From positions 1 to 35,916 of the forward strand of contig CAMWWU010000003.1 of NCBI GenBank assembly GCA_947178025.1: DNA of 35,916 bases. The letters are read 5' to 3'. The notes under the pieces are model-generated. The model worked only from the letters and a program-made list of their open reading frames with translations. It had not been told where the DNA came from and ran no database searches. A program made the translations under genes and the position numbers. Origin of the DNA: an uncultured Alistipes sp. GTDB lineage: Bacteria; Bacteroidota; Bacteroidia; Bacteroidales; Rikenellaceae. Of this stretch, positions 5,185 through 31,885 are shown piece by piece (positions within the stretch are counted from its first letter, which is position 1; each line of letters begins with the position of its first letter).

Positions 5185-6814
5185 CGTTCCGCGATTCGTC
5201 GAGTACCTCGATGGCACGCAGGATCACGTTGTCCACGGGGTAGATGTTAGCATAGAATCCGTTGTCTTCGAGCGCCGTATTGCGACCGATGTAGGCCCTC
5301 AGCTGCGCCTCGATCAGCCGGCGCGAACGGGCGATGTCCGCCTGCCGCGGCGCCACGCCCTGCCGGGCCGCATAGCGCACGAAATCCTCGACCAGCGTCC
5401 GGTCGGCGTCCAGCAGCGCCTGCAACTCGTCGAGCGTCTGCACGGCGTTGAGCGCCTCGCGATGCCGGTCGGCATACTCGATCGTATACCTATATAAAAT
5501 ATTCCGTCCCGCTACCTCGACGTAATACTTCGTCAGATCGGTCGTGTCGGCCGGCACGAAGAGATCGGGCATGATGCCGCCCCCGCCGTAGACCACCTTG
5601 CCGGCGGGCGTCACCCGACGCAGCGAATCGGCGAAACGGATGCTGTCGGCCGAGAAGTATTCGTTGTTCCGATAGCGGTTCCACAGATCGGCCTCGTAGC
5701 TCTCCTCGTCGCCGATCGTGTAGGGTTTCTGGATGGAGCGGCCGGTCGGCGTGTAGTAGCGCGCCGTGGTGAGCCGCAGGGCCGAGCCGTCGGCGAAAGG
5801 CACCTGCCGCTGCACGAGCCCCTTGCCGAACGATCGGCGGCCGATGATCGTACCGCGGTCGTTGTCCTGCAAGGCGCCGGCCAGAATCTCGCTCGACGAG
5901 GCGCTCCCCTCGTCGATCAGCACGGCGACCTCCATATCCTGGGCCGATCCGGTACCGTCGGCGTATTCGCGCAGCTGCTCCCGCTTACGGTCCTCGGTGT
6001 AGACGATCAGCTGCCCCTCGTGCAGAAACTCGTTGGCGATCAGAATCGCCTGATCGAGATAGCCGCCCGAGTTGCCGCGCAGGTCGAAGATCAGCTTCGT
6101 GACCCCTTCGGCCCGCAGCGAAGCCAACGACCGTTCGAGCTCCTCGAACGACGTGCGGGCGAACTGCCCGAGCCGCACGTAGCCGATGCCCTCGGCGATG
6201 CGGAACGACGACTCGATGCTCCGGATCGGAATGACGTCGCGCACGACGTCGACGTCGACCAGCCCCTCGATCCCCTGCCGGCCGAGGCCCAGCCGCACGG
6301 TCGTGCCGCGCGGACCGCGCAGCCGCTTGACGATCCTGTTCTGCGGAATCTTCCGTCCGGCGACCAGCGAATCGTCGATCTCGATGATCCGGTCGCCGGC
6401 CTTGATGCCGGCCTTGTCGCTCGGCCCCTTGGGGATGACGTTCAGCACGATCACCGTGTCGGTCGCCATGTTGAATACCACGCCGATGCCGTCGAACTCC
6501 CCTTCGAGCGGCTCGTTCAGCTCGGCCATCTCCGAAGCGGGGATATAGACCGAATGGGGATCGAGCTCCTCGACGAGCAGCGGAATGACCCGCTCGGCGA
6601 GCGAGTCCATCGGCACGGGGTCGACATACTGGTTCTCGATGAGCGAGAGGGTCTGCGTGAGCTTGTTGTGGGGCATACTCGCCTGCTGCAACAGCCCGCG
6701 CAGCTGCGTCGCCGTGTCGTGACGCCCCAGCCAGTTGCCCAGCAGCAGTCCCGCCGCGACGCCCGCCGCGAGCAGCAGCGGGAAGAGAACGGTGCGTTTC
6801 GTATTCCGGTACAT
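5177..6814 (-). CDS. S41 family C-terminal processing peptidase with PDZ domain
   Basis: N-terminal TM; PDZ segment GIGVVFNMATDTVIVLNVIPKGPSDKAGIKAGDRIIEIDD; catalytic region DLRGNSGGYLDQA, LIDEGSASSSEILAGALQDNDRGTIIGRRSFGKGLVQ. Confidence 0.9.
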   Translation of the reverse strand: MYRNTKRTVLFPLLLAAGVAAGLLLGNWLGRHDTATQLRGLLQQASMPHNKLTQTLSLIENQYVDPVPMDSLAERVIPLLVEELDPHSVYIPASEMAELNEPLEGEFDGIGVVFNMATDTVIVLNVIPKGPSDKAGIKAGDRIIEIDDSLVAGRKIPQNRIVKRLRGPRGTTVRLGLGRQGIEGLVDVDVVRDVIPIRSIESSFRIAEGIGYVRLGQFARTSFEELERSLASLRAEGVTKLIFDLRGNSGGYLDQAILIANEFLHEGQLIVYTEDRKREQLREYADGTGSAQDMEVAVLIDEGSASSSEILAGALQDNDRGTIIGRRSFGKGLVQRQVPFADGSALRLTTARYYTPTGRSIQKPYTIGDEESYEADLWNRYRNNEYFSADSIRFADSLRRVTPAGKVVYGGGGIMPDLFVPADTTDLTKYYVEVAGRNILYRYTIEYADRHREALNAVQTLDELQALLDADRTLVEDFVRYAARQGVAPRQADIARSRRLIEAQLRAYIGRNTALEDNGFYANIYPVDNVILRAIEVLDESRNDD

Positions 6815-29019: not shown

Positions 29020-30753
29020 ATGAAGCGAAACGAACAATCCGACGGACGCACTGCGGTGCGTCCGTCGCGTTTTTTACGGCCGGTCACGGAGCACCCGCTC
29101 CTCTTCCTCGGAGCAGGCGTGCTGTCGCTGCTTCCGGACCTTCTCCTCCTTTTCCGCGGGCTGCCGGAGATCCATGCGGTCCGCAACTTCTTTTTCTGCG
29201 TACTGCTGGCCGTTTTCCGCTCCTACCTGCTGACGCTTCCGCTACTCATTCCGGGGGGGGGATTTTCCTGGCTCCGGATCGGCAAACGCATCTACCAGAC
29301 CGTCGTTCTGTCGGCGATCGGACTGCTGGCGGTCGCCGAGTGCTTCCTGCTGCTCCGGTTCGACCTCCGCTACACCTACTACATTCTGCTGCTCCTCTGG
29401 GAAACGGACCTCCGGGAAAGTTCCGAGTTCCTGACGGCCTATGCCGCCTCGCCGGCCCTGCTGGGCCCGACCGCCGTCGCAGCGCTTGCCGGCATCGGTC
29501 TCTGCGCGCTCCGGCGCCGTCTCTTCGCGCGATTCGAAGCGGGACGCAAAACCCGGCTCCTCCTGACGATCCTCCTGCTCGCCGGCGCCGGATGTTACGC
29601 CGCCCGGGGATGCCGCCAATACCGGATGACCCTCTCCGACGACTACCCCAGCGAGCTGTTCCGCAGCGCGGCCACCGTCTCGATGTTCGAACGGCTGCAC
29701 ACCGCCACGTTCTGGTTCCGCCAGCAATTCTCCGCCGAGCAGGCCGAACGACTGCTCCGCACCCTCGAAACGGTCGAAATACAGGGGTGTTCGTTCCGTT
29801 CGCCCTGCATCGTCCTCATCATCGGCGAATCCTTCAACAAACACCACTCGGAGCTCTACGGCTACCCGCTGCCGACCAACCCCCGGCTTCGCGAACGCAT
29901 GGAGCGCGGCGAGCTGCATCTCTTCCGGGAGGCCGAGACCTCGGCCAACATCACTTCCGAGGTGCTGACCCGCTTCTTCTCGGTCGCCGACGACATCGAT
30001 CGCTGGGCCGACGCTCCGCTCTTTCCGGCCCTCTTCCGGAAGGCGGGCTACGCCGTCTGCTACCTCGACAATCAATCGGCCGGAGCACATTGCGACTACT
30101 ACGACGTCGGGCTGAAACCGATGTTCAACTCCCGCAGCATCCCGCTGCTCTTCACCGCGGCCAACGACCGCACGTTCCCCTACGACGGGGCGCTCGTCGA
30201 AGAGTACGACCGGATCGTACCCCGCAACGGCACGCCCGAGCTGACGATCTTCCACCTGATGGGGCAGCACATGATCTACCGCGCACGCTTCCCCGAGGAA
30301 TACGCCCTCTTCGAGGCCGACGACATCCCGCGGACAGACCTGGACCGCGACCAGCGGCAGACGATCGCCGACTACGACAATGCCACGCGCTACAACGATG
30401 CGGTGGTCGACGCATTGATCGACCGCTTCGCCGACCGCGACGCCGTGGTCGTCTACCTCTCCGACCACGGGGAGGAGATCTACGACTATCGCGACTTCTG
30501 GGGAAGGTCCCACGGCGAAATCACGCCCGAAGTGTTCCGGCACCAGTACGAGATTCCGATGATGATCTGGACCTCCGCGAGCTATCGGCGCAACCGGCCC
30601 GACCTCGCAGAACGGATCGCCCGGGCCGCCGACCGGCCGTTCCGCTCCGACGACCTGTCGCATCTGCTGCTCGATCTGGCCGGCATCCGCTGCCGCTGGT
30701 CCGCCCCCGCACGCAGCGCGCTCGACGACCGATACGCCCCCTCCGCCCGATAG
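29020..30753 (+). CDS. Phosphoethanolamine-transferase-like membrane sulfatase-fold protein
   Basis: N-terminal multi-TM region; alkaline-phosphatase-fold motifs CIVLIIGESFNKHHSELYGYPLPTNP, TIFHLMGQHMIY, VVVYLSDHGEEIYDYRDFWGRSHG. Confidence 0.83.
   Translation: MKRNEQSDGRTAVRPSRFLRPVTEHPLLFLGAGVLSLLPDLLLLFRGLPEIHAVRNFFFCVLLAVFRSYLLTLPLLIPGGGFSWLRIGKRIYQTVVLSAIGLLAVAECFLLLRFDLRYTYYILLLLWETDLRESSEFLTAYAASPALLGPTAVAALAGIGLCALRRRLFARFEAGRKTRLLLTILLLAGAGCYAARGCRQYRMTLSDDYPSELFRSAATVSMFERLHTATFWFRQQFSAEQAERLLRTLETVEIQGCSFRSPCIVLIIGESFNKHHSELYGYPLPTNPRLRERMERGELHLFREAETSANITSEVLTRFFSVADDIDRWADAPLFPALFRKAGYAVCYLDNQSAGAHCDYYDVGLKPMFNSRSIPLLFTAANDRTFPYDGALVEEYDRIVPRNGTPELTIFHLMGQHMIYRARFPEEYALFEADDIPRTDLDRDQRQTIADYDNATRYNDAVVDALIDRFADRDAVVVYLSDHGEEIYDYRDFWGRSHGEITPEVFRHQYEIPMMIWTSASYRRNRPDLAERIARAADRPFRSDDLSHLLLDLAGIRCRWSAPARSALDDRYAPSAR
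29041..29075 (+). terminator. Intrinsic terminator-like hairpin inside the 5' end of the 29020-30753 CDS
   Basis: Perfect 10-bp stem GACGGACGCA-ctgcgg-TGCGTCCGTC followed by gcgTTTTTT. Confidence 0.75.
29253..29261 (+). repeat. Homopolymeric G9 tract within the phosphoethanolamine-transferase-like CDS
   Basis: ...CTCATTCC GGGGGGGGG ATTTTCC... Confidence 0.9.
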
Positions 30754-30814: not shown

Positions 30815-31885
30815 CTACCGGATTCCGTGCTTGCGGAAAATCTTCAGCAGTTCGGGCTGCAGATTCTGCGCCCAGCGCCAGTAGCCCAGATCGGAAGGGT
30901 GGGTGCCGTCGGCCGACGTGGCGTGATCGTCGCCCGTGAGGCCCTCCTTATCGATGAAATATACGTTGTCGAAACGCTTCATCGCCACGGCCATCATCCG
31001 GCGGGCCATCGCTTTCTTCTCCTCCTCGAAGGCCCGCTTCTTGAGGTCGAAGTTGCCGCTCTCGCGGTAGATCGTCTGCACGAAGATGAGCGGCGTCTCG
31101 GGCAATCCCTCGCGGATCCGCTCGATGAAGGGGATCAGGCGCTCCTCGATCATCGCGGCGTCGGGATTCGAGAAAGCGTCGAAGACGATGGCGTCGGCAT
31201 CCTTCGCATCCGCGAGGTAGGCCGCGAAGTAGGGTTGCAGCTTGCAGTTGCCGCTGCACGCGATGCTGCAAAACTGAATGCCGGTCTGCCGTTCGATCAC
31301 CATCGGGTAGCTCATGCCGGCGCGCGACGTGCACACCCCGTGCGTGAAGCTCGATCCGAAGATCACGATCTTGTGCCGGAACGGATTCTCGATCGCCTCG
31401 ATATACGAATCCTCCGTCACGCAGACCTTGAGCGATCCCAGCTCGCTGTAAACGGGCAGATAGAGCAGACACTCCTTCTCGGAGTCGTCCATGTCGGCGA
31501 CGAGCGTCAGCGGCTCGCTCCGCTGGCGGGGCACCTGCGACGCAGCGTAGAGCCACTCGCCGTTCTTCCGGATATAGAGGTCGTAACCGGCGTAGGAGAT
31601 ACCGGGGGCGTTGTCGCCGCGCTGCTCGTAGAGATACTCGGCCACGACGTCGATGCGCGGGGAGTTGGTCTTGAAGGCGACCGCCAGACCGGCCGTGCAG
31701 CGCACCTGCCGGTTCTCGCCGCGCGTGAAGCCTTTGTAGACCGCCGTGTCGATCCGGTGCCAGGGATGCGACGTGGGCAGCACCTTGCCCACCGTCGTCA
31801 GCTCCGTCGCATCGATGCTGCGCATCTGCGCAGCGGCGGCTCCCGCCGCCAGCAGGGCGACGGCCGCCAGAAGAGTCTTTCTCAT
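30815..31885 (-). CDS. SGNH/GDSL-type hydrolase, predicted secreted
   Basis: Signal MRKTLLAAVALLAAGAAAAQ; block I-like IVIFGSSFTHGVCTSRAGMSYP; SIACSGNCK; C-terminal SADGTHPSDLGYWRWA with Asp/His. Confidence 0.8.
   Translation of the reverse strand: MRKTLLAAVALLAAGAAAAQMRSIDATELTTVGKVLPTSHPWHRIDTAVYKGFTRGENRQVRCTAGLAVAFKTNSPRIDVVAEYLYEQRGDNAPGISYAGYDLYIRKNGEWLYAASQVPRQRSEPLTLVADMDDSEKECLLYLPVYSELGSLKVCVTEDSYIEAIENPFRHKIVIFGSSFTHGVCTSRAGMSYPMVIERQTGIQFCSIACSGNCKLQPYFAAYLADAKDADAIVFDAFSNPDAAMIEERLIPFIERIREGLPETPLIFVQTIYRESGNFDLKKRAFEEEKKAMARRMMAVAMKRFDNVYFIDKEGLTGDDHATSADGTHPSDLGYWRWAQNLQPELLKIFRKHGIR

Follow-up and report, generated by a model that had tools for sequence, protein, structure and literature searches.

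DNA inversion is the familiar route to phase variation in gut Bacteroidales, and their invertases switch SusC/D-type and capsule genes. Inversion-type switching is what a 2025 review names for Bacteroides (PMC11868660). Homopolymeric tracts of more than seven G have been classed as hypermutable, with 1e-5 to 1e-2 changes per division, and Campylobacter jejuni is without mismatch repair (PMC4235727). Tract lengths in Campylobacter are concentrated at nine (53%) and ten (26%), and 77% of the tracts are located within open reading frames (PMC6321876). The pptA gene of Neisseria meningitidis, which encodes a pilin phosphorylcholine/phosphoethanolamine transferase, is phase-variable through a poly-G tract that codes for poly-glycine and is ON at 8G. 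At 11G the extra glycine inactivates PptA, and switching was seen in about 1 in 100 colonies (PMC3656113). In a literature search restricted to papers free of subscription, none of the titles listed dealt with phase variation by homopolymers in Alistipes, Bacteroidales or Bacteroidetes. The mechanism itself is classical, and what is new here, as far as this literature goes, is its apparent use across a genus of Bacteroidales.

The window, that is the whole 35.9-kb stretch of DNA that was analysed, contains a single G or C run longer than six bases. This is a run of nine G (G9), in frame within an open reading frame of 577 aa and between the predicted second and third transmembrane (TM) segments. 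The features of the locus are listed below.

29020..30753, + strand: phosphoethanolamine-transferase-like membrane protein, 577 aa, EptC/CptA-like (Pfam, NCBIfam and PDB matches)
29194..29250, + strand: hydrophobic segment, residues 59-77, predicted TM2, directly before the tract (hydropathy)
29253..29261, + strand: G9 tract, putative slipped-strand switch, P78-G79-G80-G81
29299..29355, + strand: hydrophobic segment, residues 94-112, predicted TM3, past the tract (hydropathy)
29432..29434, + strand: TGA that ends the frame after loss of one G (137 aa)
29827..29829, + strand: Glu270, aligned with the metal-binding Glu of EptA/EptC (alignment)
29953..29955, + strand: Thr312, aligned with the catalytic Thr of EptA (alignment)
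30463..30468, + strand: Asp482-His483, aligned with the metal-binding Asp-His pair (alignment)
30882..30884, + strand: TAG that ends the frame after gain of one G (621 aa, wrong frame past the tract)

The protein has a single Pfam domain, Sulfatase (PF00884), at residues 263-556 with an E value of 2.9e-38. According to the hydropathy analysis, the first 200 residues contain about five hydrophobic segments and are followed by the Sulfatase-type catalytic domain, which is the architecture of the class. Among the NCBIfam models, CptA ranked best and other phosphoethanolamine transferases came next, with every score below its cut-off. The two CptA models, NF007933 and NF012179, scored 203 bits against a cut-off of 404 and 176 bits against 900, respectively. 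The MCR-type polymyxin resistance models, which are of the NCBIfam exception type, scored at most 56 bits against cut-offs of 1075-1250. Among solved structures, C. jejuni EptC (PDB 5zzu) is the best relative, with an E value of 2e-35 over residues 263-574. Alignment with EptC and EptA showed that the Glu, the Thr and the Asp-His pair of the EptA/EptC/CptA/MCR class are present, as E270, T312, D482 and H483. By the roles of these positions in the family, E270, D482 and H483 would bind metal and T312 would be catalytic. Judged from the sequence, a sensible name would be phosphoethanolamine transferase or a near relative. A structure prediction from the single sequence had a mean pLDDT of 35 and was set aside. 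About 6 kb from the transferase gene, an inverted segment and an insertion of about 4 kb were observed between two species that are 95% identical (L086:2961-13290 against G159:C2:55300-61830, L090-L091). No convincing inverted repeats were found flanking this species-specific inversion near the transferase gene.

The tract covers the third base of Pro78, all of Gly79 and Gly80 and two bases of Gly81, within the peptide P-G-G-G-F. The first-pass annotation had placed it in a phosphoethanolamine-transferase-like gene, coding for PGGG near codon 80 between predicted TM segments, and the sequence bears this out. Its frame arithmetic was also correct. Loss of one G leads to the TGA upstream of the catalytic domain, and gain of one G opens a long alternative frame that runs on to the TAG. 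The tract is uninterrupted and longer than seven G, which places it in the hypermutable class, and a change of one unit in either direction abolishes the product according to the computed frames. For an estimate of the chance level, the synonymous codons of the open reading frame were redrawn with local usage, and a run of at least nine G was present in 235 of 20,000 reshuffles (1.2%). Therefore, the single tract is moderately unusual and is weak evidence alone. It stands well above chance because of its conservation among orthologs and a genus-wide excess of exactly nine G. For the same reason, the retention of nine G in related species and their strong over-representation across the genus, the run probably serves as a switch that turns on and off at random.

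Five full-length orthologs, with 47-56% amino acid identity, were retrieved from 180 genomes of the genus. The first-pass annotation had named interrupted tracts in close relatives as evidence against phase variation. An uninterrupted run of exactly nine G is found at the same loop, in frame, in four of the five orthologs, and the fifth (L008) has no tract. The residues of the loop vary among the species (P-GGG-F, R-GG-V, N-GGG-S and I-GGG-S), and the tract starts at codon position 3, 2 or 1 depending on the species. With unlike flanks and three codon phases in use, what has been conserved is the nucleotide tract and not the peptide. A protein constraint for Gly-Gly-Gly was ruled out by the three phases and by the RGGV of one species. 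Thus the tract is kept in homologs beyond what the protein would impose. Between two species with about 90% nucleotide identity, a 7-nt indel adjoins the tract and the nine G are unchanged. All four tract-bearing orthologs are ON at exactly nine, and in each of them the frame is broken by one G more or less.

The length distribution was determined for the 180 genomes of the genus. The counts of exact G7, G8, G9 and G10 were 1373, 1729, 4732 and 352, and G9 was the commonest of the four in 143 of the genomes. On the other hand, 118 other genomes of the order had 4437 G7 and 353 G9, with G9 exceeding G7 in one genome. The other genera of the family are mostly low, with few exceptions (G313 with 37 and G318 with 51). 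The source genome (2.23 Mb in 186 contigs) contains 51 exact G9, 12 G7, 10 G8 and 6 G10. In 370 kb sampled from it, G/C runs numbered 381, 36 and 2 at lengths five, six and seven, and 11 at nine. A genome assembled as one 3.8-Mb contig (G013) has 109 G9 against 7 G7. An unselected stretch of 400 kb from G013 gave 387, 17, 1, 1 and 10 G/C runs at lengths five to nine, and the counts of A/T runs in the same stretch fall smoothly with length. The genus therefore shows a genome-wide excess of long poly-G with a peak near nine, as in the phasome of Campylobacter. Two genomes of the same genus, G001 and G017, are without the excess; they have 0 and 2 exact G9 and 26 and 31 G7, respectively. MutS and MutL were also found in these two. 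In each of the 15 genus genomes tested, whether rich or poor in G9, the genes mutS1 and mutL scored above cut-off. Therefore, loss of mismatch repair does not explain the excess and was ruled out as its cause.

Tract positions were surveyed in 1.71 Mb from six genomes of the genus and G155, of which 90% was called coding by a simple codon-model gene finder. The survey yielded 88 tracts of at least eight bases. Coding tracts were the minority (32 of 88, about 36%); the other 56 were intergenic. The corresponding densities are 2 and 33 per 100 kb, a difference of about 16-fold. The intergenic tracts lie mostly 3' of a gene on the same strand, often 1-40 nt past the stop codon, and in several species they lead into long purine-rich (GA) spacers. 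Examples are found in L126-L145 (G002), L088-L094 (G159) and L095-L100 (G009). Some of them occupy orthologous places across several species. Their abundance and shared places indicate a mutational tendency that needs no selection on coding sequence.

Even so, the distribution of the coding tracts is clearly non-random. They were assigned by Pfam to TonB-dependent receptors, hybrid two-component sensors, glycosyltransferases, FG-GAP proteins, a BACON lipoprotein and others. A second membrane protein of the Sulfatase family also carries a tract. Eight of the 25 TonB receptors in the sample, about a third, have one (P about 1e-4), and the first fifth of the gene holds 16 of 28 coding tracts when the transferase gene is counted once (P about 2e-5). 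Both values come from a sample in which some source-genome stretches had been picked because they hold tracts, and for which the gene classes were defined post hoc. The unselected G013 stretch contained the same kinds of tract genes. FG-GAP surface proteins of two species (L069:3570-5519 and L117:6746-8803) each have a nine-base tract, but the two tracts differ in both position and strand (one is poly-C and one poly-G), as though acquired twice. Another G9 is located at codon 10 of a 56-aa open reading frame (L072:5514-5681). This short frame precedes a lipoprotein-like gene of 1056 aa in the same orientation and is possibly a switchable leader.

A frame test of the coding tracts gave 34 ON copies and four credible OFF copies, so that about 90% are ON. 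Three copies are OFF by one base: a TonB receptor on source contig C57 (G9), a hybrid sensor on source contig C58 (C10) and a TonB receptor in G013 (C8). The fourth, a 383-aa frame on source contig C19 (C10) without a Pfam family match, is less certain. Every OFF copy has a long intact frame past the tract, a state more in keeping with a recent slip than with decay. These copies indicate that coding tracts do reach lengths other than nine and that their genes go out of frame. In contrast, the high share of ON copies argues against very fast, unselected switching. Two further apparent OFF calls were dropped. At C45:1832 the gene downstream comes with a start and a signal peptide of its own, and the score of G002 C1:36504 is weak. 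The four credible OFF copies lie in L164 (about 5236-5244), L165 (about 5592), L123 (about 13184) and L150 (about 3020).

From these sequence comparisons, the G9 tract is quite likely to be a contingency locus of the slipped-strand type, comparable to Neisseria pptA. The tract would gain or lose a G at a raised rate during replication. Lengths of 8 and 10 would place the catalytic domain out of frame, and 9 would be the ON and commonest state. Consequently, some cells of a population would have a membrane transferase of phosphoethanolamine or a similar phospho-substituent and others would lack it. The locus would be one of dozens of poly-G or poly-C tracts in the genome, belonging to a genus-wide repertoire around nine G. 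We infer active switching at this tract, and likewise the donor and the acceptor of the enzyme and the benefit. The ON/OFF switching proposed by the first-pass annotation is thus the best-supported reading, through the orthologs, the genus-wide mode at nine and the OFF copies elsewhere. Its interpretation is supported in part, as the lipid A or LPS modification and the polymyxin and host-peptide resistance that it attached to the switch are possible consequences. However, no length variant of this tract was seen, and the tract-bearing orthologs are all ON at exactly nine. Furthermore, the 16-fold intergenic density points to a mutational tendency independent of coding selection, the share of ON copies is above that of fast unselected switching, and the MutS and MutL present in the genus should slow slippage.

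These same observations can be read as a mutational by-product, in which short G runs grow to a stable nine anywhere. The loop of the transferase would then be merely tolerant, there would be no selected switching, and rare OFF cells would be purged. We consider this rather unlikely; nevertheless, the mostly intergenic tracts together with the ON bias of the coding ones make a slippage equilibrium without selected switching a serious rival. It accounts for the many tracts that directly follow stop codons and recur at matching sites in several species, for a length that is nearly always nine, and for the ortholog in L008, which lacks the tract at no visible cost. It does not account for the clustering of coding tracts at 5' ends and in genes for surface proteins and sensors. 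The tract has also outlived about 45% protein divergence in the transferase gene while third codon positions elsewhere vary, and intact genes that are OFF by one base exist. The constancy of the tract has another conceivable origin at the RNA level. RNA polymerase or the ribosome could slip on G9 so that each cell makes both full-length and truncated protein from a fixed DNA. A fixed nine with the frame ON, constant across the tract-bearing orthologs, is the expected look of such a slippery site. The flanks, however, have no conserved signal, and three different phases are used to read the tract. Moreover, the same mode at nine occurs in intergenic DNA, and changes of DNA length do occur in other coding tracts, so this origin appears very improbable. 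An artefact of homopolymer sequencing or assembly is hardly credible. Longer, messy poly-G is indeed present at contig ends of the source genome G000 (the end of C10, the start of C39 and the end of C42), and these ends are perhaps two-colour sequencing artefacts or assembly breaks. G9, on the other hand, is internal and in frame, and the single-contig genome G013 has the same mode at nine. The recurrence of the tract at the orthologous site in independent assemblies has largely eliminated the artefact.

A broader proposal, in which our belief and our doubt are about equal, is that the genus possesses an undescribed poly-G phasome. A set-point would hold slippage at nine despite mismatch repair. 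As a result, outer-membrane receptors, sensor kinases and envelope-modifying enzymes would carry switchable tracts, and many conserved nine-G marks would be left just past stop codons. If true, the genus would use poly-G slippage in addition to inversion or in place of it, and gut commensals would have a second, independent means of diversifying their surface, one that is invisible to inversion-finding software. The consequences would extend to phage resistance, polysaccharide use, immune recognition and cationic-peptide tolerance. A set-point as sharp as nine in the presence of MutS and MutL also makes the genus a good natural case for the study of homopolymer length control.

Compared with the known systems, the invertase switching of Bacteroidales belongs to the same order but operates by DNA inversion, whereas homopolymer slippage is proposed at G9. 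C. jejuni EptC is the closest solved relative of the catalytic domain, and no phase-variable tract is known in C. jejuni eptC. The Campylobacter phasome resembles the present case in its dozens of tracts per genome, its peak at nine, its frame switching by one base and its over-representation of surface and carbohydrate genes. It differs in that most of its tracts are within open reading frames, in contrast to about 36% in the surveyed sample, and in a second peak at ten, a length that is almost missing from the genus. Mismatch repair is absent from C. jejuni, whereas MutS and MutL are present in the genus. Neisseria pptA is ON at 8G and is the one of the two genes for which switching has been measured, while the Alistipes gene is ON at 9G. 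The two would nevertheless share a phospho-substituent transferase, an intragenic poly-G tract that codes for poly-glycine, and an OFF state that is one G away.
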